Below, piece after piece: positions 13,487 through 58,595 of a stretch of 64,000 bases of DNA. Source of the DNA: a virus; IMG/VR virus record IMGVR_UViG_3300015360_000041, positions 1 to 64,000 of that record; one strand, 5' to 3'. Position 1 is the stretch's first letter; every line of letters starts with the position of its first letter. Made by a program: the position numbers and the translations under genes. The notes beneath the pieces were generated by a model. The model saw nothing but the letters and a program-made list of their open reading frames with translations. It was not told the DNA's origin and did no database searches.

Positions 13487-13990
13487 TTAAATTGAGCATG
13501 CGCCAGAATCACAACCGGAGTCTTTACCCATCTCATCGATGTCATCGGATTTCTTGTCGTCAGTGTTTGCATAGTATAAGGTCTTTAGACCGTATTTGTA
13601 CGCGTATAACAAGTCTTTGATAACACCGCCCAGAGAGATACCGTCATTACTGTACTCGTAGTAGTGATTTGCAGACACCGACTGGTCGATCCATTTCTGG
13701 ATTACCGCAACGATGTTAGTGTAACCCTTGTTGTCGCCCATGTCGTAAGCCAGCTGGTATTTGTTCTTCAATTTAGTTATCTCCGGGACAACCTGTTTGA
13801 CTAGACCCGACTTGGAGCGCTTTGTCGTCACCAATGCTCGTACAGGTTCCATACCGTTAGTCGCATTCTGTACTACTGCGGAATTATGTGATACACAACC
13901 ATTATCTAATATATAATTATGTTGATTTAATACTTCTATATCATAAGTATGTTCTTGTTCTTGTAATTTTGTGATTTTTGTAATTCTCAT
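13487..13990 (-). CDS. nrdA: NrdA C-terminal fragment preceded by C-terminal half of split intein
   Basis: A 167-aa protein. Residues 1-36 (from MRITKITKLQ to GCVSHN) are a textbook C-intein: 36 aa, block F YDIEV....HNYIL, then the terminal His-Asn. Residue 37 is Ser, the +1 nucleophile, and starts the C-extein SAVVQNATNGMEP, which matches the active-site region of class I NrdA. The protein ends with the redox pair in CDSGACSI, as in E. coli CESGACKI. Trans-splicing with the product of the gene at 14134 would give a 762-aa NrdA, close to E. coli's 761. The ORF starts with its own ATG and A/T-rich start region, 143 bp after the N-terminal gene stops. Confidence 0.92.
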   Translation of the reverse strand: MRITKITKLQEQEHTYDIEVLNQHNYILDNGCVSHNSAVVQNATNGMEPVRALVTTKRSKSGLVKQVVPEITKLKNKYQLAYDMGDNKGYTNIVAVIQKWIDQSVSANHYYEYSNDGISLGGVIKDLLYAYKYGLKTLYYANTDDKKSDDIDEMGKDSGCDSGACSI

Positions 13991-14133: not shown

Positions 14134-16374
14134 TTATTCAAAAATATTAATAATATCGTCAAATTCTTTCAGTTCATCAACTCGCGTCCATATTTCGATA
14201 TTATCTCTATTAACTAAGAGCTTATGATTTGCTGTCATTTTATATGTTTTACCGTCAGTGAATTCTATTTCATATAATGATTTTAATCCATTATAATAAA
14301 ACTTATTACATATATCAGAACTATCTTTAGTTTTAACATTGAATGGAGTCTCAAATTCATACCAGTTTGATATTCCGTTCTTTTCTATTTTTTCAACATC
14401 TATATTTTGTTCTTTGAAAATTTCAGTATACGATTTAATATCGCCATTTTCTAATATTATTTTAGTATCTTTTGTAACGCAAGATTCCGCAGGCATGACG
14501 GCTGTCAATACCGAGTTGCGTAAACCCGCTCCCGTTTTGAGGTCGAGTTTCACTCTCAGCCCCTCCCAGTCGCACGAGTGTGTGCGTTTCACTAAGTCAT
14601 CTACATTCTTGTTATATCTGTCTATTGGCAAGACGCCTTTGCTGTACGTCGTCTTATCGTACCATTCACACGCGCCCAACTCTTCCGCTAATTTATTAGA
14701 TGCCACCAATAGAGAATACTGTATGTGCTCGAACAATTCGTCTACGGCAGTCAGAGACTCGGCGTCAGTGTATTTCAGGTCTTGTTTGGCCAACCAGTAT
14801 GCGAAATTTGTGATACCGACACCTATGCTTCTGCGTTTCAACATCTTCTTAGACGCGTTAACCGGGTAGTCCTGGTGGGTTATAACAAAATCTAATAATC
14901 TCACAATGTATTCGGACGCCTTGTATAACTCTTCGTTGTTCTTTATGGTGCCCAAGTTGTGTGCTGCGAGAACACATAGGGCAATCTCGCCTTCCGAAAG
15001 GTGTTCAGTTTCCGGTTTGTCATCAAAATCGTATATCGATTTTAGTTCGCTGGTAACAAGACAAATTTCCACGCAAAGATTCGACATTTTCACGCACTCG
15101 ATGAACGGAGAATTCGAATTCACATTATCGATATTCATCACATAAAGACGTCCCGTTCCGATGCGTTCCTGCGCGAAACTGTTCATCAGGTCGCGGGCTT
15201 TCACTGTCTTGCGTACAATCTTTTTGTTAGCCTCGTATTTCTCATACAGTTCGTCAAACTTCTCGTTGACGCCAAAGCTATCGTATAAACCCGGCACGTC
15301 GTGCGGACTGAATAGTGATATGTCTTCGTTATCGATGAATCTCTTGTAGAACATCTTAGAGAACTGGATGCCGTAATCCATATGTCGTACACGGTTGTCG
15401 TCAGTGCCCTTATTATTCTTCAACACCAATACGTCTTCAATCTCTTTATGCCACCACGGGAAATATACTGTTGCGGAACCCTTTCTGATACCGCCTTGGG
15501 AACATGAATGTACCGAGCTTTGCATCTGTTTCAAGAACGGGATTACCCCGGTGTGTACAATCTCTCCGCCGCGGATTTTAGAGCCTACTGCACGGATTTT
15601 ACCGACATTGATGCCGATGCCCGCGCGCTTGCTCACATATTTAGTGATTGCCGCGTTTACGTATATGATGGAATCTAATGAGTCGCCAGTTTCAATTAGC
15701 GTACATGAGCTGTACTGCCTGTTCGGTGTCCTGATCCCGGCCATAATCGGCGTAGGCAGTGATATTTTCTGTAACGATATTAGGTCGTATAGTTCCTTGA
15801 TATGTTTGAAACGTGTGTCCTTGTCGTAATCCATGAATACTGTCATAGCTATCAACATGAATGCGTATTGCGGCGTCTCGTATATCTTACCGACAGAACG
15901 GTCTTTGACCAGGTACTTGTCCATCAGCTGTTGAAGACCGGCGTAAGTGAAATCGTAATCTCGCTTGTGTTTGATGTACAGGTTGATGACAGATATTTCT
16001 TCGTTCGTGTACTTTTCCAATATGACCGGGTCGTATACCTCAGCCTTGACATTATTGGTTATGACGTTCCACAGGTGGGGCATCTCGGTCTTCACCTCGA
16101 ATACCTCCTTACGCAACAGGTAATTTAAAAGATTTGCTGCAACATATTGGTAGTTTGGTGTTTTCTCGTTTGTCAGGTCGACTGCAGACTGTATCAATAC
16201 ATTATGTATCGCGCTGGTCTTTATTCCTGAAAAGAATTGAATGTGTGAGTTCATTGCTACATCGCTTGCAGACACCCCAGAAAGACCTTCTGTCGCCCAC
16301 ATTAAAACTTTGTTGATTTTCTCGGCATCGAAACTTAGCTTTTCCCCGTTTCTCTTGGTAACGTTTGAATCCAT
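14134..16374 (-). CDS. nrdA: Class I ribonucleotide reductase alpha subunit, N-terminal part fused to N-intein
   Basis: A 746-aa protein. Residues 1-631 are NrdA: an ATP cone at about 1-95, then the ten-stranded barrel with SSCTLIETGDS, KRAGIGINVG and NLCVEICL (active-site N-x-C-x-E). The extein stops at PAES. Residues 632-746 are a 115-aa N-intein beginning Cys-Val-Thr-Lys, with block B TANHKLLV (T-x-x-H). The natural stop follows directly, so the protein cannot finish NrdA alone; it needs the C-intein protein at 13487. The insertion point lies in the conserved PxES/SxxxxNATNG active-site loop, a known intein site in RNR. The two genes are adjacent, same strand, followed by nrdB. Confidence 0.93.
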   Translation of the reverse strand: MDSNVTKRNGEKLSFDAEKINKVLMWATEGLSGVSASDVAMNSHIQFFSGIKTSAIHNVLIQSAVDLTNEKTPNYQYVAANLLNYLLRKEVFEVKTEMPHLWNVITNNVKAEVYDPVILEKYTNEEISVINLYIKHKRDYDFTYAGLQQLMDKYLVKDRSVGKIYETPQYAFMLIAMTVFMDYDKDTRFKHIKELYDLISLQKISLPTPIMAGIRTPNRQYSSCTLIETGDSLDSIIYVNAAITKYVSKRAGIGINVGKIRAVGSKIRGGEIVHTGVIPFLKQMQSSVHSCSQGGIRKGSATVYFPWWHKEIEDVLVLKNNKGTDDNRVRHMDYGIQFSKMFYKRFIDNEDISLFSPHDVPGLYDSFGVNEKFDELYEKYEANKKIVRKTVKARDLMNSFAQERIGTGRLYVMNIDNVNSNSPFIECVKMSNLCVEICLVTSELKSIYDFDDKPETEHLSEGEIALCVLAAHNLGTIKNNEELYKASEYIVRLLDFVITHQDYPVNASKKMLKRRSIGVGITNFAYWLAKQDLKYTDAESLTAVDELFEHIQYSLLVASNKLAEELGACEWYDKTTYSKGVLPIDRYNKNVDDLVKRTHSCDWEGLRVKLDLKTGAGLRNSVLTAVMPAESCVTKDTKIILENGDIKSYTEIFKEQNIDVEKIEKNGISNWYEFETPFNVKTKDSSDICNKFYYNGLKSLYEIEFTDGKTYKMTANHKLLVNRDNIEIWTRVDELKEFDDIINIFE

Positions 16375-16496: not shown

Positions 16497-17702
16497 TCAA
16501 ATTATATTTTTAACATACACGAATACTTTTACGCCGGCGTTAGGGACGCATATTACATTTCCGTTTGCGATCTCGGATTTTACCGCGGAGTGTTTCATGG
16601 GCTGCCTGTGTTTTATTTCATCTGTATGTACCCAGTAATTCATAACCCCGCCCTTCGAGTAGTTTACGAACGTGAACCCAATATCTTCCAGGCTGCCGCC
16701 GATATTGTGGTCGTAGTCGGAATAGAACTTGATTTCGTTCACCTGTATAGATTTCTTGCCAACTTCCAGGAACTCATGGTTGTTTATGAAATGTCTGAAC
16801 AGTCTAGAGCTTCCGCCGACGACAGAGTGATATTTCAATGTACCGACGCGTATGATTTCTATCACCCCGGGTTTCTTGGCGAAAAAATTGTAGCCGAATG
16901 TGTATAACATGACTAGAGTGCCGGCTTTCAAACTATTTCTGTCTTTTTTGAGAACCATCCCGAGATTTAGAGACGCACCTCTGCTGCCATAGAAACAGTT
17001 CTTCTTTTCAAATTCCCTGGCGACCGCGCCATCTACGACCACTATCTCACAGTCCCTCGCGTATATCCTGTCGATAGTCTTGTGCGCGGCGTGTAAGATA
17101 TACGATTTCAGTATTTCTTTTTTCGCCGGGTCATTCCACTCGAAGTCTTTTACCCACATTTTGAACGAGTTATTCTGCTCTGACTGTAACGACAAATTGA
17201 AAAAATACGACTTGTCTATGTCGTTCAACGAGTGTTTCGAACTGTCGATATAGCATATCTCATATCTCATGCCAGATCTAGTATGGAAATAATATTGGTT
17301 GTTTTCGACGGTATAATCAATTTTGCTGATATTCAGAAACGCTGTCATCTCGTTATTATATAACGTGTGTTTCGCCTGTAACGAATACACCGTGTACCCA
17401 CAATCGTATATCTTGAAAATGTTGTCATTTAATATTTTTACGGCATCGTTATTATATTTTAGATCGATAACACTGTTTTCGTGTAAAATTGTGTCCTTGC
17501 TGTTAGAATCAAAATATTTATAGTTCGGCTGTTCATATTTGACAAAATTTAATTTCCCGGTATCCAAGAATATGTTATTGTTGTCGTGTGTGTAATAATA
17601 CGCGTGTAGATTTAATTCATTTACGAATATATCGAATATATCCGTGGGGTCATATGCGGCGTCGAAATTGAAGTATGTTATCGTATTGTCGTCTACTGAC
17701 AT
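16497..17702 (-). CDS. Homing-endonuclease-associated protein (Hef-type C-terminal domain)
   Basis: A 401-aa protein with A/T-rich codon use. Residues about 205-380 show the domain often fused to the C-terminus of phage Vsr-like/Hef homing endonucleases: RIYARDCEIV, a GSRGASLNLG turn, a strand LVMLYTFGY, then VVGGSSRLFRHFINNH, IKFYSDYDHN and a GFTFVNYS end, a pattern like a GNAT fold. The N-terminal 190 residues are unassigned and may be a decayed nuclease part. The next gene upstream (17729), 26 bp away, encodes the nuclease itself, so the two may be parts of one former endonuclease. No clear catalytic motif is seen in this part. Confidence 0.55.
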   Translation of the reverse strand: MSVDDNTITYFNFDAAYDPTDIFDIFVNELNLHAYYYTHDNNNIFLDTGKLNFVKYEQPNYKYFDSNSKDTILHENSVIDLKYNNDAVKILNDNIFKIYDCGYTVYSLQAKHTLYNNEMTAFLNISKIDYTVENNQYYFHTRSGMRYEICYIDSSKHSLNDIDKSYFFNLSLQSEQNNSFKMWVKDFEWNDPAKKEILKSYILHAAHKTIDRIYARDCEIVVVDGAVAREFEKKNCFYGSRGASLNLGMVLKKDRNSLKAGTLVMLYTFGYNFFAKKPGVIEIIRVGTLKYHSVVGGSSRLFRHFINNHEFLEVGKKSIQVNEIKFYSDYDHNIGGSLEDIGFTFVNYSKGGVMNYWVHTDEIKHRQPMKHSAVKSEIANGNVICVPNAGVKVFVYVKNII

Positions 17703-17728
17703 GTTTGCTATGGCGGTGTCACCTACAG

Positions 17729-18898
17729 CTAATTCGTAGTTGTATCGACTAATACGGCCGTAGAAATATCGGTATATTTGATTTCGTCTTGTGTAATTTC
17801 ACTGACGGTGTAGCTTGTAAATTTATCATGTGATTTATTGATATGATTACGTAATAGCGTTTTTATATTGTTGCTGTTATGTTTCCACTCGTTTTCAAAA
17901 ACGTGGAATAATTTTATGTTTTGTTTACTTGCGGCTGTGGATTTATTGTAATGATAGTTCGTGTCCGTTTTATATTTCTCTGAGTGCCAGAATACGCCGT
18001 TGTACTCTACTGCCAGATTTACGTCTTTGCAGTATATGTCTAAGTGCTTGCCGTTCAGTATTGTTTTATTTGTCTGCTCGGTATTCGTAAACTGTTTTAT
18101 GTAGTCAAATAACTCGAGTTCCGCGCAAGATATGTTACTGTTGATGGGATTACACTCGGTACACGGGCACACGTCGTATAACTTAACTCGCTGGTACAGT
18201 AATTTGTACGGTATTTCATAATATCTGTCACATTTTGTGCACAATATCTTTAACAAGTTTTCATTCAATATTTCAAAATTATGTATGTCGTAATCTCTCG
18301 GCAGTTTATACATGTAAAAATTGACCCAGGTTTTTTGGATTTTGTTTTTAAAATATACTGATTTATTGAAACTTGCCGCCCCGTATCTTTTCATGTTTGT
18401 CGCAACCGACTTAGTTTTTATGTCTAAATGCGTCAGTGGCGATTTGCTGTTATACTTGAGTATGCAAGTGTTCTGTTTTTTCTGCTGGATGTCATGTACC
18501 AATAACACATTTTCCACGCCGTATCTGTCCATACACGTCTGCCTGTATTTCTCTTTGCCCTCGTCACTCTGCATATAACTATCGTGACCGAATAACATGT
18601 TATTGGTTATTTTAGCTTTACCGCGCGAGCACGCTTTGCAGGTATAAAACCCGTGTCTGTTAACATTCTGCACGTATTTGTAATACATTAACGATTTTTC
18701 TGCGTCACATTTAGTGCAAATCGCAGTAATGGCTGCATGCGAATTCGTAGACAAATCATGTATCTTGACGTCTGCAGTGTAAATCACACCCTGCGCCGTC
18801 TTATCGCCATTTTCTAATTCGTATCCCTTGCTGAGAAAATAGCTTTTGTTTGTATTATTGATTTTTATCTGTATCTTTTCTTCTTTAATCATATGCAC
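17729..18898 (-). CDS. Vsr-like (EDxHD-type) homing endonuclease
   Basis: A 389-aa protein. The N-terminal half has several Cys pairs (ICTKCDAEKS, FYTCKACSRG, KILCTKCDRYYE, CPCTECNP), probably zinc-binding DNA-recognition modules. Residues about 255-340 form a Vsr-like nuclease: CAELELFDYI, then LDIYCKDVNLAVEYNGVFWH and FHVFENEW, giving the catalytic Asp, Glu and His pattern of the EDxHD family. That family was first described next to split inteins and fractured phage genes. Here it lies between split nrdA and the truncated DNA polymerase gene, which is divergently transcribed 84 bp away. Codon use is more A/T-rich than in core genes. Confidence 0.7.
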   Translation of the reverse strand: MHMIKEEKIQIKINNTNKSYFLSKGYELENGDKTAQGVIYTADVKIHDLSTNSHAAITAICTKCDAEKSLMYYKYVQNVNRHGFYTCKACSRGKAKITNNMLFGHDSYMQSDEGKEKYRQTCMDRYGVENVLLVHDIQQKKQNTCILKYNSKSPLTHLDIKTKSVATNMKRYGAASFNKSVYFKNKIQKTWVNFYMYKLPRDYDIHNFEILNENLLKILCTKCDRYYEIPYKLLYQRVKLYDVCPCTECNPINSNISCAELELFDYIKQFTNTEQTNKTILNGKHLDIYCKDVNLAVEYNGVFWHSEKYKTDTNYHYNKSTAASKQNIKLFHVFENEWKHNSNNIKTLLRNHINKSHDKFTSYTVSEITQDEIKYTDISTAVLVDTTTN

Positions 18899-18982: not shown

Positions 18983-20311
18983 ATGGAACGCATGATTATC
19001 GATAGGAAAAAAAAGCAATTATCTACAGATGAAATATCATATTTAGATACGCTTAGTGAATACGATGTTATTGCGTTAATGAAAGAATGTAACGACAAAT
19101 ATAATTACCATAACGCCGTTCAGACAGGATTAAAATTAATTTTAAACTCTGTTTATGGTGCATTCGGTAACGAGTTTTTCGTGTGTTCCACGACTGATAT
19201 TGCAGGGGCCATCACGGCGATGGGTCGTGACCTTATCAAATACATGGATACTATTAATGAGACGTATTGGTACGAGTACTGGCATGAAGACGATGAGCTG
19301 CACGAGCATTTAAAAATAAGCGATGTCGAAAAAATACCAGATAACTGGATTCACAGAGAGTCGAAGACACTGCACGAAGGCGAAGTCACCCAGTTAGATA
19401 TGGAAGACGGCACGTACCAGAGAGAAGTGTCTGTGAGTAACTATGTTGATACTGATTCTTTATTTTGTTCATTCGAACCGGCAATGAATAGCGCTAAATG
19501 GAAAGGCGATGAACAAGATTTCATCACAAAAATAGCTGAATTCAGACTGGAGCCGTTGTTCAAATCGAAGCTCAAGGGTTATGCGAAGAAATACCGTGTC
19601 GAAAATATACAGGAGTTTGAATTAGAGAATATTAATGAGTCGGTAATATTTTTGACGAAAAAGAAATACATCAAGCACACGATACGGGAAGATGGCACGC
19701 AATACCCGAGACTGCAGAATATTGTGCCGAAAGGCGTGCAGCTTATTCAGAAGGGGACACCTAAATTCGCCAGAGAGAAAGTCATGCAGATTATCAATTA
19801 CTTGTTTGATAATTCAACATCGTATAATATCAAAGACCTGTTGAAATTTGTCAGGGACCTGAAGAAGGAATTCGAATTGACAGATATTAACGATATTGTA
19901 CAGTCTACGAATATAAACAATTACTGGTCTAGCAAGTTGATTGTGGACGGCCAACTCACAGATGGTCCTGGAGTAGTACATGACAAAGACAAGCTCATTT
20001 ACGGCAAGGGCACGTATTACACAATAAAGGCAGCTGGTCTATACAATAACTTGCTGTACAAACACGCTGAGCTGATTAACACATACGAGGTCATAAAACC
20101 CGGTACAAAAGTAAAGATATACCCGTGTCTCGACAGTGAGAATGATAAATTTTGTTACATATTGGGCAAATATCCGAAGGAATTCGCGCCGGCCGTCGAT
20201 TATGACGAATTATTTCAGAAAACGATAGCAGCCCAGGTTAATACATATATTAGTGCGTTAGGTCTGCCGGAACTGAATAAGCGTCTAAAGGTCGTAATAT
20301 CACTGTTTTAA
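18983..20311 (+). CDS. Family B DNA polymerase, C-terminal fragment only
   Basis: A 442-aa protein holding the later part of a T4 gp43-like polymerase: motif B in KLILNSVYGAFGN (about residues 51-63), motif C in NYVDTDSLF (usual YxDTDS), KKKYI of the KKxY block, and the thumb. The 3'-5' exonuclease domain and motif A (DxxSLYPS) are missing. The protein begins directly upstream of motif B with its own ATG and no intein sequence. The missing N-terminal part must be encoded elsewhere in the genome, because a phage with this set of replication genes needs it. Split gp43 genes are known in some T4-like phages, usually beside a homing endonuclease as here. Confidence 0.85.
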   Translation: MERMIIDRKKKQLSTDEISYLDTLSEYDVIALMKECNDKYNYHNAVQTGLKLILNSVYGAFGNEFFVCSTTDIAGAITAMGRDLIKYMDTINETYWYEYWHEDDELHEHLKISDVEKIPDNWIHRESKTLHEGEVTQLDMEDGTYQREVSVSNYVDTDSLFCSFEPAMNSAKWKGDEQDFITKIAEFRLEPLFKSKLKGYAKKYRVENIQEFELENINESVIFLTKKKYIKHTIREDGTQYPRLQNIVPKGVQLIQKGTPKFAREKVMQIINYLFDNSTSYNIKDLLKFVRDLKKEFELTDINDIVQSTNINNYWSSKLIVDGQLTDGPGVVHDKDKLIYGKGTYYTIKAAGLYNNLLYKHAELINTYEVIKPGTKVKIYPCLDSENDKFCYILGKYPKEFAPAVDYDELFQKTIAAQVNTYISALGLPELNKRLKVVISLF

Positions 20312-42372: not shown

Positions 42373-42608
42373 AAATGAACGAGATTTATGTCAATTTAGA
42401 TATTTGTGAATGTCATGAGATATTCGATAAACACTCATACTGTAGTGCCGAGTCATGTATAACGGCCGGTGTGACCGAAATACTTTATGACCAGGAGTCC
42501 GGTGATATATTGGCGACAGTACAAAATGGCGAATTCCTCACGCTAGACGAGAAATATACGAGCGAAAATATAAAAACTTTCACGAATATTTCCGAATTAC
42601 GAAAATAA
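42363..42608 (+). CDS. Small hypothetical protein
   Basis: An 81-aa protein with three Cys in the first third (DICECHE, YCSAES, SCITAG), so zinc binding is possible. An internal Met at residue 5 (position 42375) is an alternative start. It is the last gene before the tRNA leader region. Confidence 0.5.
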   Translation: MQIKMNEIYVNLDICECHEIFDKHSYCSAESCITAGVTEILYDQESGDILATVQNGEFLTLDEKYTSENIKTFTNISELRK

Positions 42609-42612
42609 TTCG

Positions 42613-42620
42613 TATATTTG
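42613..42620 (+). promoter_or_regulatory. TATATTTG -7 element upstream of the tRNA leader
   Basis: TATATTTG matches TAnnTTTG and is followed after 4 nt by ATG-ATC-TAA at 42625. The same element-to-ATG spacing occurs at four gene starts. Transcription would start near 42625, 49 nt before the leader ORF. Confidence 0.55.
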
Positions 42621-42673
42621 CGTTATGATCTAAAAACAGATTAAACTTTTTTACTATATAATATATAATTAAT

Positions 42674-42760
42674 ATGAAAACAACTAGCAATATATCACGC
42701 CGCTCGAGTTCGTCAAGACGAAGCGGATATGTATTGCCTGGATGTGGACGTATGAAGTAA
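42674..42760 (+). CDS. Ser/Arg-rich leader peptide (28 aa) upstream of Ser/Arg tRNA genes
   Basis: A 28-aa ORF with seven Ser and five Arg; nine of the ten residues 8-17 are Ser or Arg apart from none other (ISRRSSSSRRS). The codons are TCA, TCG, AGC, AGT, CGC, CGA and AGA, all readable by the four tRNAs encoded just downstream (anticodons TGA, GCT, TCT, ACG). A hairpin TTCGTC/GACGAA lies within the Ser/Arg codons. The ORF is followed after 27 bp by an intrinsic terminator. This is the layout of a leader peptide that controls attenuation. A small basic protein with its own role is the alternative. Confidence 0.55.
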   Translation: MKTTSNISRRSSSSRRSGYVLPGCGRMK

Positions 42761-42797
42761 TTAGAAATACTATCATTTGTTTTTTTTAAACCCAGGC
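42736..42797 (+). promoter_or_regulatory. Possible antiterminator pairing
   Basis: GCCTGG at 42736-42741, just after the Ser/Arg codons of the leader ORF, is complementary to CCAGGC at 42792-42797, in the 5' arm of the terminator. The two structures exclude each other. A ribosome stalled on the early Ser/Arg codons would leave GCCTGG free to pair and prevent the terminator. Confidence 0.45.
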
Positions 42798-42816
42798 CGA
42801 AACGTCTGGGTTTTTT
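42788..42816 (+). terminator. Intrinsic terminator between leader ORF and tRNA genes
   Basis: An 8-bp stem (AAACCCAG / CTGGGTTT) followed by a T-tract, 59 bp before the first tRNA gene. Confidence 0.8.
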
Positions 42817-42874
42817 ATTTTATAGCAGTTTACATGAGCAACGTTCTGAAAATTAAAAATTGGAGCTCGACATT

Positions 42875-42964
42875 GGAAGGTGTAGCAGTCTCATGGAGAG
42901 GCGATTAGTTTTGAAAACTAAACAGCGGGTAATGCCGCTCGGGGGTCGGGTCCTCCACTTTCCG
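42875..42964 (+). tRNA. tRNA-Ser (TGA)
   Basis: Seven-pair acceptor stem (GGAAGGT / ACTTTCC, one G-T), anticodon stem TTAGT/ACTAA with loop TTTGAAA giving anticodon TGA, a long variable arm (class II, as in serine tRNAs) and a T-arm. The D-stem is weak. The 3' CCA is not encoded. Confidence 0.82.
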
Positions 42965-42983
42965 CAGTGAACATGATTGTAAT

Positions 42984-43056
42984 GCAGACATGGTGTAAGT
43001 GGAAACACGTTGGGATTCTAACCCAAAGACTCTGAGTTCGAATCTTGGTGTCTGCG
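42984..43056 (+). tRNA. tRNA-Arg (TCT)
   Basis: Perfect acceptor stem GCAGACA / TGTCTGC, D-arm GTGT/ACAC, anticodon stem TTGGG/CCCAA with loop ATTCTAA (anticodon TCT), and T-arm with TTCGAAT loop. No encoded CCA. Confidence 0.92.
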
Positions 43057-43095
43057 CAAGATTTTCGTATTAGATTACAAATACGATTGAGTAAT

Positions 43096-43181
43096 GGAAA
43101 AGCCAACTGTTGGGGAAACAGACTTGCCTGCTAAGCAACGTGTCCGGGAAACCGGATTGGGGTCGGAACCCAGGTTTTCCG
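43096..43181 (+). tRNA. tRNA-Ser (GCT)
   Basis: Acceptor stem GGAAAAG with GTTTTCC (six pairs, last position mismatched), anticodon stem TTGC/GCAA with loop CTGCTAA (anticodon GCT), long variable arm with TCCGG/CCGGA stem, and T-arm. Class II serine tRNA. No encoded CCA. Confidence 0.87.
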
Positions 43182-43190
43182 CGTGAATAT

Positions 43191-43261
43191 GTGTCTATAG
43201 TTTAATGGAAGAACGGAAGAATACGAATCTTTTGGTCTGGGTTCGAATCCTAGTTGACACA
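43191..43261 (+). tRNA. tRNA-Arg (ACG)
   Basis: Acceptor stem GTGTCTA / TTGACAC with one T-T mismatch, D-arm with TAGTTTAATGGAAGAA, anticodon loop ATACGAA (anticodon ACG), and T-arm CTGGG/CCTAG with TTCGAAT loop. An ACG anticodon normally needs A34-to-inosine editing to read CGC and CGA. Confidence 0.87.
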
Positions 43262-43276
43262 CAATAAAACATAAAA

Positions 43277-43702
43277 CTAATTAACGTTACCTAACGAATT
43301 ACTATCAATCTTCACTGAATTTATTTGTGTCGGATTCACATTCCCCTGTAATTTTACCTTGTCTCGTGTTACGGCATCATTGACGTTTTTAAAATCCGGC
43401 ACCGTAGATTTTGTAACTTCCGGGTTAACATTGTCGTCGGACAATTTCTCTAATTTTATCTTAGTTTCATCGGTCACATTCAAATTCGATGGCTCTAATT
43501 TCTCTGTTTTTTTTACAACGGCGTTCAAATTATCTTTTTCCAACTTCGATTTCGTTGATTTAGAACTTGCCGTGTTTAAAGTCTCGTTCTTGAGTTTCTT
43601 TTTTTCTGCAGGTTTATCACTAATATTGCTGTCGTCCAACACAGATTTGCGTATTTTTGATTGGTCGTCCTTATTAAGGTTTGAGTTAATTTTGTTTGTC
43701 AT
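43277..43702 (-). CDS. Low-complexity repetitive protein
   Basis: A 141-aa protein made almost only of Lys, Asn, Asp, Ser, Thr and Val, with the motif N-[LV]-N recurring every 15-18 residues (DNLNA, SNLNV, DNVNP, KNVND, GNVNP). It is surely disordered. It is transcribed toward the tRNA genes from the opposite strand. The repeats could act as a flexible linker, a target for modification, or a DNA/RNA-binding tail. It may also be an ORF without a protein role, though the ordered repeats speak for translation. Confidence 0.45.
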   Translation of the reverse strand: MTNKINSNLNKDDQSKIRKSVLDDSNISDKPAEKKKLKNETLNTASSKSTKSKLEKDNLNAVVKKTEKLEPSNLNVTDETKIKLEKLSDDNVNPEVTKSTVPDFKNVNDAVTRDKVKLQGNVNPTQINSVKIDSNSLGNVN

Positions 43703-43755: not shown

Positions 43756-44772
43756 ATGAGGTTATATATAACGGAATCGTCCGTACAGACGATGACATCA
43801 TTCTTCAAATATTCCGATATTGAGATAGTCAACAATCCGCAGACGTATTTCATGCGTAACAAACAGCATTTCAACTTCGACGCTGTCCTGATACTGGACG
43901 GAACCCCCGGAAACGATGCTACACTGAACATGGCCAGGCTTGCAGGCGTGCCGGTCTATGGCATACACAGGTACGACAAGACCGAACAGTCGGTCATGAT
44001 GAGCGCGGCGAGCATCAACATGCCAGACACGTGGTTCTCGGGGTACCTGAATAATTGCAACGATTTCGTGTCGTTGATGAAAGACGTCAAAGACGATGAA
44101 CGAGTGATAATAAAATACAGCCTCGGCGCGAGGGGTTTCGGTCAGATACTGCTGACTAAACGCGAGCTGATCGACTTGTTCGACAGCGACGACGATGTAT
44201 TAGTCAGATTGCTCGGCGAATCGTATTCGAAAGCACACTGCACGGACGAAGGTTTGGAGCAAACGACGGCAAAGAAACTGTCGGAGACAGATAAGCAACT
44301 CGAGAAATTCAAGAATATCAAGATAAATAAACACGACTGTCTCTTGAGCGCCATAAGACGCCGTAATGATTTAATAGTGCAGAGATACATACCGAACAGA
44401 GTCGAGTGGCGGATGCTCTGGTTTTACGACCAATTTCCAATCCTGGTGAGACGGAATTTCGACGACGGTACTTGGCAAGCCAATGCGTGCAATAACACGT
44501 CTGGGTCGTCCACTGTCGTCGATATGCGAGAATTGAAGGACTATGCCATAGACTACGAAAAGATCGACGGGTTTTTCAGTGAGATGAATGCGCCGTTCAT
44601 GAGCGTGGACATATATTACGATACAGACACTCACCAATGGGGGCTATTCGAGTTCCAGATGGAATTCGGGTGGACCAACACTGTGGGCATGGACTCGAGT
44701 TCTCTCAGTGTCAAGATGACAGAGGCTGTACATTCCATAACTAACAAACAAAAGCACACTCTCGCAGTATAA
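43756..44772 (+). CDS. ATP-grasp-like protein (Ter-associated candidate)
   Basis: A 338-aa protein. The first 100 residues look like the pre-ATP-grasp Rossmann part (VLILDGTPGNDA, GVPVYGIHRYD). The central and C-terminal parts show ATP-grasp features: RVIIKYSLGARGFGQILL (Lys and Gly-rich loop), LIVQRYIPNRVEWRMLWFY, and FMSVDIYYD....WGLFEFQMEFGW, where the usual E/N metal ligands lie. The nearest group I know is the RimK-like ligases. ATP-grasp enzymes are a regular part of the predicted Ter-linked biosynthetic module, with HAD and PRTase enzymes as found at 59763 and 60437. Substrate unknown. Confidence 0.68.
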   Translation: MRLYITESSVQTMTSFFKYSDIEIVNNPQTYFMRNKQHFNFDAVLILDGTPGNDATLNMARLAGVPVYGIHRYDKTEQSVMMSAASINMPDTWFSGYLNNCNDFVSLMKDVKDDERVIIKYSLGARGFGQILLTKRELIDLFDSDDDVLVRLLGESYSKAHCTDEGLEQTTAKKLSETDKQLEKFKNIKINKHDCLLSAIRRRNDLIVQRYIPNRVEWRMLWFYDQFPILVRRNFDDGTWQANACNNTSGSSTVVDMRELKDYAIDYEKIDGFFSEMNAPFMSVDIYYDTDTHQWGLFEFQMEFGWTNTVGMDSSSLSVKMTEAVHSITNKQKHTLAV

Positions 44773-57266: not shown

Positions 57267-58595
57267 TTACAGTAGTGTCGTCTCTATATAGTGGTCGTTA
57301 GTTACACGCAATATATTCTTGTTGAAACTGAATCCTACTCTCTCATAGTCAGTAGAGCAGTCACGCAGTTTAACGTGTTTCAAGTGGTACTTGTTCTCCA
57401 TCTTCATCAGCGGCGTCAATATGATTGCCCAGACCATGTCTGCGGTATCTGCAATCGCCTTGCTCTCCGGTATGTCGTTCAACGCTATGTCGTTGGCGCC
57501 GTACTTGTCTTTGGCGATCTGTGTTGCGGTCAACAGCGCGAGATTGAATTTCTGCGCGATTGCCCTCAATCCAACTGCCAAGTGCTCGCCCTTGAGGTAA
57601 AGCATGTTCCTGTCCACGCCCTTCTCAGTGCCCATGATTTGGATGTAATCGATGACTAGCATGTCAATATCTATGCCGGCCTCTTCCTTGACCTGTTTGA
57701 GATATTTCTCGACGTCTGAAATCGTGGCAGACCCGGACGGGTATTCTTTAATGAATAATTTACCGGGCTTGCTATCTATTATCCCCCCGCCATTACGACT
57801 GTTCATCTCTTGGATGCGTTGCTTCATGTACTCCTTGTCTTTAGCGAGCTCTGTATACTGGTTGATTGGAATCTCGAGTCTCATGCTTCCTATACGCTTT
57901 AGACATTTCTTGTCGCTCAGTTCTAGTGTGATGTATGCGACATTGTAACCGGCGTTCACAGCATTTACAGCGAAATTCTGCATCCACAGAGATTTGCCGG
58001 AACCCGGTCCGCCCATCAGAACGTTGAATGTCTTTCTGTCCCATCCGCCTTCTGTTATAGCATCGAGACACGGATAACCTGTCGTTATCTTGTTAGCCTC
58101 CAAATCCTGGTCGTGCGCGTCCTCGTCGTCGAAATCCAGTCCTATACTGCCCTTCTCGAGTTGGATGTTGATGGCATTATCTATTTTTAATCTTACTTTG
58201 GATACGGCTTCCTGCACTTTGTTGTAATCTGTCTTATCCAGACCCTTGATGTCGTCTATGCTGTCTACCAGGCCGTTTATAGTGGAATTAGACAAGACCC
58301 ACGCCTTGAACCGAGGTTCTATGAATTCAGGGCGGAACTCGTCCCAGTCATTCTTCAACAAGGCCTTTATGAAATCTAAAGGAATCTTGTCATCTTTGTC
58401 GTAGAGTTTGACCAGATTGTAAATCTCCTTCTTTCCAGGAACCACCTTGTCAGTACTCCCCATGTATTCTTCACGTATACAGTTGTATACGAACTTAATA
58501 TCCTCGTTTTCGAAGTAGAACCCTTGTACGTTTCTGAAGTGCTCAGGTTTCTTCAAAACCCAGTTCATGAATAATTTCTCGATGTTTGATGTCAT
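57267..58595 (-). CDS. Replicative DNA helicase, DnaB/gp41 type
   Basis: A 442-aa protein. The N-terminal helical domain (1-130) is followed by the RecA-like core: TTGYPCLD, Walker A GGPGSGKS (195-202), NVAYITLELS, Walker B DMLVIDYIQIM, LLTATQIAKD (motif with sensor Gln) and RDCSTDYERVGF near the end. T4 gp41 is the same kind of hexameric 5'-3' helicase of the replisome. Length is usual for this group (440-475 aa). Transcribed divergently from terC. Confidence 0.92.
   Translation of the reverse strand: MTSNIEKLFMNWVLKKPEHFRNVQGFYFENEDIKFVYNCIREEYMGSTDKVVPGKKEIYNLVKLYDKDDKIPLDFIKALLKNDWDEFRPEFIEPRFKAWVLSNSTINGLVDSIDDIKGLDKTDYNKVQEAVSKVRLKIDNAINIQLEKGSIGLDFDDEDAHDQDLEANKITTGYPCLDAITEGGWDRKTFNVLMGGPGSGKSLWMQNFAVNAVNAGYNVAYITLELSDKKCLKRIGSMRLEIPINQYTELAKDKEYMKQRIQEMNSRNGGGIIDSKPGKLFIKEYPSGSATISDVEKYLKQVKEEAGIDIDMLVIDYIQIMGTEKGVDRNMLYLKGEHLAVGLRAIAQKFNLALLTATQIAKDKYGANDIALNDIPESKAIADTADMVWAIILTPLMKMENKYHLKHVKLRDCSTDYERVGFSFNKNILRVTNDHYIETTLL

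Follow-up and report, generated by a model that had tools for sequence, protein, structure and literature searches.

Introduction

For decades there has been debate over why phages carry genes for transfer RNA (tRNA); what controls these genes has seldom been asked. That second question is raised by a small tRNA operon in the IMG/VR virus record IMGVR_UViG_3300015360_000041. We analysed positions 1 to 64,000 of this linear record (64.0 of 66.9 kb), referred to here as the window. At 42,613 to 43,262, a short open reading frame (ORF) rich in serine (Ser) and arginine (Arg) and an intrinsic terminator stand directly ahead of two Ser and two Arg tRNA genes. Leader-peptide attenuation is known for amino-acid biosynthesis operons such as trp, his, leu, thr, ilv and pheA. 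An original prediction, made from the window sequence, proposed that this locus is an attenuator in which a lack of charged Ser or Arg tRNA switches the tRNA genes on. Comparison of sequences strongly supports that reading. The locus is very probably a ribosome-mediated transcription attenuator of a phage tRNA operon, and one case of a system present throughout this group of huge phages.

Results

Architecture of the window locus

The elements of the locus all lie on the + strand and follow one another in the predicted order. The first is TATATTTG (42613-42620), previously called promoter-like, which matches TAnnTTTG, the established -7 promoter consensus of Bacteroidota. The leader ORF (42674-42760) has 28 codons and reads MKTTSNISRRSSSSRRSGYVLPGCGRMK. 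It contains the predicted seven Ser and five Arg residues, and this Ser plus Arg content (12/27) is well above the 0.11 found in the long ORFs of the window (binomial p 7.7e-6). Between the leader and the tRNA genes is an intrinsic terminator, a hairpin AAACCCAGGCCGAAACGTCTGGGTTT at 42788-42813 with a folding energy of -14.0 kcal/mol, followed by a T run (TTTATTTTAT). The tRNA genes are tRNA-Ser(TGA) (42875-42964), tRNA-Arg(TCT) (42984-43057), tRNA-Ser(GCT) (43096-43181) and tRNA-Arg(ACG) (43191-43262). On the + strand, the stretch from the terminator to the first tRNA gene shows no promoter-like site; a separate promoter there would have counted against attenuation.

The leader is matched to the operon in its codons as well as its residues. 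Its Ser and Arg codons are AGC, TCA, CGC, CGC, TCG, AGT, TCG, TCA, AGA, CGA, AGC and CGT, and all 12 can be decoded by the four downstream tRNAs under simple wobble rules. Codons 8-17 (TCA CGC CGC TCG AGT TCG TCA AGA CGA AGC; 42695-42724) are the putative control codons, as judged from the sequence and from the codon profile across 47 leaders described below. Beyond them, at the 3' end of the ORF, is the candidate antiterminator segment GCCTGG (42736-42741). As the original prediction had noted, this is the exact complement of CCAGGC (42792-42797) in the 5' arm of the terminator, which can thus pair either with 42736-42741 (duplex -12.4 kcal/mol) or with the 3' arm of the terminator. Two exclusive folds are predicted. 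When a ribosome occupies codons 8-17 and the RNA has been made as far as 42803, the antiterminator forms at -16.0 to -18.8 kcal/mol; once the ribosome has moved on to the stop codon, the terminator is the only fold left. The last control codon (codon 17, at 42722) would put the front edge of a stalled ribosome at about 42735, and the antiterminator begins at 42736.

The two tRNA-Arg genes are called by ARAGORN and by Infernal (58.4 bits for Arg(TCT) and 58.6 bits for Arg(ACG)). The two tRNA-Ser genes are class II, and are identified by their cloverleaf folds and by orthologous genes of the same anticodons in a related phage (locus L033, below). Both are missed by ARAGORN and Infernal because their T loops are atypical, and Infernal misses them even at E<=1. 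Atypical T loops are also found in the Ser tRNAs of the relative (L033 2709-2799 and 2832-2915), which ARAGORN likewise misses; automatic annotation therefore understates the tRNA sets of these phages. A pattern search with the tRNA-Ser start found nothing. An Rfam match to 'Betaproteobacteria_toxic_sRNA' on the terminator lies below the gathering score and was dismissed. Elsewhere in the window, no ORF-terminator pair has a convincing leader.

Orthologous and related Ser/Arg operons

The closest relative with a tRNA cluster is IMG/VR 3300002143_000235 (G001, 313.7 kb), and its layout matches that of the window locus. At L033:2480-3152 it has a promoter TACATTTG, an ORF MKTITNISSSSRSRRSSSRRSGYVLSEVF and a terminator AAAGCCTCAGATATTATCTGAGGCTTT, followed by tRNA genes for Ser(TGA), Ser(GCT), Arg(TCT), Arg(ACG) and Arg(TCG). 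The orthologous Ser/Arg leader (L033:2539-2628) begins MKTITNISSSSRSRRSSSRRSGYVL. Its antiterminator TGTCTGAGGTTTT pairs with AAAGCCTCAGATA at -17.5 kcal/mol, an energy equalled by 0/200 shuffles. The pairing arms of G001 differ in sequence from those of the window and retain their complementarity, so the arms change together across the orthologues, a pattern that the original prediction had suggested looking for. Further Ser/Arg operons are present in LR756502 and LR745206, with leaders MKTTIKNTSSRSRSSKSGEVRLYS and MKTINNTSKSSSRSSSMSEIRLYS, each with its own pairing arms. Throughout these relatives Ser/Arg codons are retained ahead of Ser/Arg tRNAs; their loss would have spoken against the proposal. 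A tblastn search of the phage collection found no relatives of the window leader peptide, and DNA-pattern matches to the leader tail in L207 and L209, which lack a terminator or tRNA, were set aside as chance.

Leaders across the group match the tRNAs of their own operons

Other tRNA operons in the related phages also have leaders matched to their own tRNAs. We surveyed these with a scan that is blind to leader composition, taking the longest ATG ORF of 12-50 codons that ends 0-45 nucleotides (nt) before a terminator, itself <=450 nt before a tRNA; this geometry (ORF of 12-50 codons, gap of 0-45 nt) was set after the first clusters had been seen and is not independent of those clusters. The scan finds 60 leaders in 14 related huge-phage records. 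Nearly all tRNA sub-operons of these phages have the same leader-terminator design, with a leader that spells out the operon. Thus MTTSFQQQQQQQINRTD precedes four Gln tRNAs, MKNLITLTIITLCTLMCNGLVVS precedes Leu, Ile, Thr, Cys and Met tRNAs, and MKTFNKHNNNNFKFWSNDSGSEELI precedes Trp, Phe, Asn, Pro, His and Lys tRNAs. A leader beginning MKAMILSLCLSLSLSLQKL stands before Leu, Ser and Cys tRNAs, one containing KFTPAPAVAFRRGTGTGTGTCVPAGCG before Arg, Thr, Val, Ala, Gly and Pro tRNAs, and MKAISVHIIHIWEHLLEEVNINIM before His, Glu, Val, Trp and Leu tRNAs.

Over the 60 leaders, the mean fraction of residues cognate to the operon tRNAs is 0.390, against 0.175 expected. When leaders are permuted within genomes, the observed score of 12.4 is reached in 0/20,000 permutations (null 1.0 +/- 1.1, maximum 5.5), and a non-redundant set (n=43) scores 8.1 against 0.02 +/- 0.62. 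All 20 amino acids are commoner in leaders whose operon has their tRNA, with enrichments of 13.5-fold for Gln, 10.3-fold for His, 5.9-fold for Pro, 4.9-fold for Phe and 4.5-fold for Trp. The first hallmark of an attenuator, a short ORF rich in relevant codons upstream of a terminator, is therefore seen both in the window enrichment and in the permutation of the 60 leaders. The match extends to codons. ATA makes up 12/18 Ile codons ahead of operons with Ile(TAT) only and 5/29 ahead of those with Ile(GAT) only (p 0.0013), and the use of AGR versus CGN codons for Arg tracks the Arg anticodons of the operon (p 0.007). An exact TAnnTTTG is found <=90 nt upstream in 22/60 leaders, where shuffles lead one to expect 2.0. 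The gap from stop codon to terminator is mostly 18-36 nt. As in the window, an intrinsic terminator stands between the leader ORF and the genes it would control.

Three further arrangements were seen during the survey. In G016, ARAGORN misses two His(GTG) tRNAs that follow a leader MVLVFKHKFFHNHCKSRG with its own terminator (L157:1101-1157); this unit lies directly upstream of a Lys/Phe leader and operon. In G013, two tandem leader-terminator units (L160:709-879 and 1311-1453) stand ahead of one large tRNA array. The 735 kb phage LR756501 has two tandem tRNAs with anticodon CTA (L066; 690585-690737), which are possible amber-suppressor tRNAs.

Antiterminator pairing and codon spacing

In 47/60 cases the leader and spacer pair with the 5' arm of their own terminator better than dinucleotide-shuffled leaders do (median p 0.01). 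The same test is passed by 11% of 108 ORF-terminator pairs without downstream tRNAs (Fisher p 1e-18). The pairing is specific to each leader, with a summed energy of -755 kcal/mol for own leaders and -500 +/- 18 kcal/mol for swapped ones. The antiterminator segment is placed towards the 3' end of the ORF, with a median distance of 18.5 nt from its centre to the last base of the stop codon. It would thus both exclude the terminator and be masked by a ribosome that finishes the leader.

The control codons are placed with respect to this segment. Across the 47 leaders, cognate codons are concentrated between -48 and -12 nt from the antiterminator. The cognate fraction is highest 18-30 nt upstream (0.71-0.81), being 0.81 at -24, 0.55 at -12, 0.30 at -6 and 0.15 at +6. 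The drop at about -12 nt is where the front edge of a stalled ribosome would be, and the spacing appears to be that expected if such a ribosome just frees the antiterminator.

Leaders in other phages

Leaders of this kind are also found in other phages. Prevotella phage Lak-A1 has two leaders before tRNA operons, one of which begins MKTLNMTYGMHPVCGMVHMFPCGGGRPM and precedes His, Pro, Arg, Gly, Cys and Met tRNAs. Two isolates have one leader each. In Bacillus phage G (leader region at about 58,150-58,590 of NC_023719) it is gp86, the first part of which, MKCSWFEFDTDFTDVFYCEYTFYSLYTFL, has 24/29 residues cognate to the downstream Cys, Asp, Phe, Tyr, Glu, Thr, Ser and Trp tRNAs (p 1e-6), with an antiterminator at p about 0.01. 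In Agrobacterium phage Atu_ph07, 24/29 leader residues are cognate (p 3e-4) and the antiterminator TTCCGGTTCC pairs at -17.0 kcal/mol (p 0.004). A matching leader was not found in T4, Aeh1, phiCbK, Serratia BF or CBB.

Schizotequatrovirus-type Vibrio phages (50 records; L195:1501-1663 is KVP40, and L192, L193 and L194 are further examples) share a 37-amino-acid ORF that uses up to 19 of the 20 amino acids and is followed by a terminator and a tRNA operon with nearly all isoacceptors, 27 tRNAs in KVP40. The composition test is meaningless for this operon because nearly all tRNAs are present, and no antiterminator was found in the KVP40 group. The ORF could be a sensor for any tRNA; this is suggestive, and we do not claim it as a leader.

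Source of the window

The window encodes phage replication genes (a UvsW-type helicase, a DnaB-type helicase, a family-B DNA polymerase, ribonucleotide reductase and NAD ligase). Its UvsW is 62% identical to that of G001, and the UvsW and dihydrofolate reductase regions of G001 are syntenic with the window. The same protein is 38-44% identical to those of the 634-735 kb genomes LR756502 (44%), LR745206 (43%), LR756504 and LR756501 (735 kb; 38%), and these identities relate the window to Mahaphage-related huge phages at the level of a core gene. All five genomes above 634 kb were placed in the Mahaphage clade, with Bacteroidetes as predicted hosts (Al-Shayeb et al. 2020, PMC7162821); that study found up to 67 tRNAs in huge-phage genomes (Mahaphage, Lak). 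From the replication genes, the UvsW identities and this clade placement, the record most likely represents part of the genome of a huge phage in a Mahaphage-related group. The TAnnTTTG promoter of the locus fits a Bacteroidota host.

Some other genes of the window have unusual structures. The ribonucleotide reductase large subunit is in two pieces, at 14134-16374 (-) and 13487-13990 (-). The former ends in the N-part of an intein (Pfam Intein_splicing, residues 638-741), and the latter starts with the C-part (residues 1-35) followed by the remaining enzyme, an arrangement suggestive of a split intein. Of the family-B DNA polymerase, the ORF present (18983-20311, +) covers just the C-terminal half; it lies next to 16497-18898 (-), with two ORFs matching homing-endonuclease families beside it, and the gene is possibly split. 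No relatives were found for the 338-amino-acid protein encoded downstream of the tRNA genes (43756-44772).

Discussion

A model of the switch

The sequence shows the parts and their order, a leader that fits its tRNAs at the level of both residues and codons, a specific pairing, and the spacing of the codons; together these suggest how the locus would work. Transcription would start at the TATATTTG promoter, and a ribosome would translate the 28-codon leader as RNA polymerase nears the terminator. When charged Ser- and Arg-tRNA are ample, the ribosome would reach the stop codon and mask 42736-42741, the terminator would fold, and the tRNA genes would stay silent. When any Ser or Arg tRNA for codons 8-17 is scarce, the ribosome would stall there with its front edge just short of 42736. 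The antiterminator could then pair with the emerging 5' arm of the terminator, and the polymerase would read through into tRNA-Ser(TGA), tRNA-Arg(TCT), tRNA-Ser(GCT) and tRNA-Arg(ACG). Shortage would thus turn the switch on. More generally, huge phages appear to place each tRNA operon behind a tiny gene made mainly of cognate codons and a terminator.

Several observations weigh against this model. The GCCTGG/CCAGGC pairing of the window is, taken alone, marginally unusual (p 0.03 with dinucleotide shuffles, 0.06-0.11 with mononucleotide shuffles). A few of the detected leaders match their operons poorly, for example before Met tRNAs. Coupling of transcription and translation is presumed for the presumed Bacteroidota hosts. 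Folded at full length, the window leader favours the terminator over the antiterminator, even when a ribosome is stalled on it; the switch must therefore be kinetic and would be decided during transcription, a kind of decision that is accepted for other attenuators. Finally, a conserved 1:2 protector hairpin is not supported over the 47 leaders (mean z -0.09), although the window leader, taken by itself, has such a hairpin (-13.1 kcal/mol, p 0.01). A wholly untranslated leader should therefore often give read-through, unlike that of trp.

What the switch is for, and what else the locus might be

The purpose of the switch may be homeostasis, the meeting of codon demand, or a response to starvation or to host tRNA nucleases that restores lost tRNAs. 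One proposal, for and against which we find the balance about even, is that huge phages have a genome-wide, codon-resolved sensor of tRNA depletion. The leader of each operon would spell its own anticodons and accept any of many inputs, so that loss of a specific charged tRNA, for example to a host anticodon nuclease, would induce its replacement during infection. Stopped translation would also turn the sensor on, since no protector hairpin is conserved. At least three phage lineages, far apart from one another, would have the design: Bacillus phage G, Agrobacterium phage Atu_ph07, and the relatives of Mahaphage and Lak in Bacteroidota. A second proposal, somewhat less probable in our view but a serious one, is homeostatic autoregulation, in which the phage tRNAs relieve the stalling and the circuit mainly fixes a constant supply, with no answer to defence or starvation. 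Of the leader codons, 577/650 can be decoded by the operon's own anticodons, so that the products would act back on the very sensor that controls them. Against this, a single leader often includes codons for many amino acids, which suggests detection of any single shortage. Homeostasis is the same switch with another purpose, and sequence cannot separate the two.

Explanations that dispense with codon-dependent stalling fare much worse. The locus could be a chance neighbourhood, in which a tRNA operon with its own transcription follows a terminator-bearing gene for a small Ser/Arg-rich protein; it is common for short ORFs to end at a terminator, and the window pairing by itself is marginal. 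We regard this as very unlikely, given a composition match that recurs in 60 leaders and is reached by no permutation, an antiterminator in 47/60 leaders but 11% of control pairs, and cognate codons whose positions track ribosome geometry. The terminator-to-tRNA gap, moreover, is often 6-22 nt; in about a third of the 60 operons it is <=21 nt, which leaves no room for a promoter. Equally improbable is stalling by the nascent chain or by an antibiotic-like effector, as in TnaC or ErmL, in place of codon starvation. Homologous leaders do share some tail residues (GYVL in the window and L033), but these fall in the part that encodes the antiterminator, and leaders differ completely between operons and track tRNA identity even at the codon level. 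Least likely of all is a T-box-like riboswitch that senses uncharged tRNA directly and makes the ORF incidental: T-boxes too switch a terminator by tRNA charging and answer to a codon, but the locus has many cognate codons in one open frame, pairing at the ORF end at a fixed distance from the stop codon, no conserved T-box elements, and no Rfam match to a T-box or other riboswitch at 42600-43300 even at E <= 1 (nor any at gathering score over the window).

Relation to known systems and implications

An attenuator of phage tRNA genes would share with those of amino-acid operons the short leader ORF rich in relevant codons, the mutually exclusive antiterminator and intrinsic terminator, the codons just ahead of the antiterminator and the terminator directly before the controlled genes. 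It differs in having phage tRNA genes rather than biosynthesis genes as targets, in leaders that often cover between three and ten amino acids each, and in a match that is specific even to the isoacceptor (ATA with Ile-TAT, AGA with Arg-TCT). Unlike the three-hairpin trp and his type, the phage leaders have no conserved protector (pause) hairpin. With T-box riboswitches they would share a terminator controlled by tRNA charging, with amino-acid specificity given by one or more codons. Rfam finds no T-box or specifier-loop structure here, however; a ribosome at work on the leader would do the sensing, and what would be switched is tRNA genes instead of synthetases or transporters.

Phage tRNA arrays have been described as a counter-defence against tRNA nucleases (van den Berg et al. 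2023, PMC10264068; PMC11555353). These are the same class of genes, with a proposed replacement of depleted host tRNAs; unlike the present study, those reports treat tRNA sequence and function. The portion of PMC10264068 that was searched makes no mention of attenuation, a leader, a terminator or an operon, and the main text of PMC7162821 does not mention leader peptides. The statement in the original prediction that no attenuator of phage tRNA arrays was known to its author holds for the open-access literature that was searched. Full-text searches of 5.39 million open-access papers, a set that largely leaves out subscription journals and preprints, turned up no description of tRNA operons, in phages or in cells, that are attenuated through a leader peptide. 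The class of mechanism is known; as far as tested, in a survey that covered phage genomes, the tRNA target, the codon-matched design for several tRNAs and the viral setting are new.

If the model is right, ribosome-mediated attenuation would extend from operons for amino-acid synthesis to tRNA genes and to viruses. The leader design offers a functional assignment for many unannotated short ORFs of huge phages. A leader that names its tRNAs would also tell what the phage measures, namely, codon by codon, how well particular charged tRNAs are supplied. The hypotheses of tRNA replacement and codon compensation become directly testable, also in culturable phages, since gp86 of phage G appears to be such a leader.
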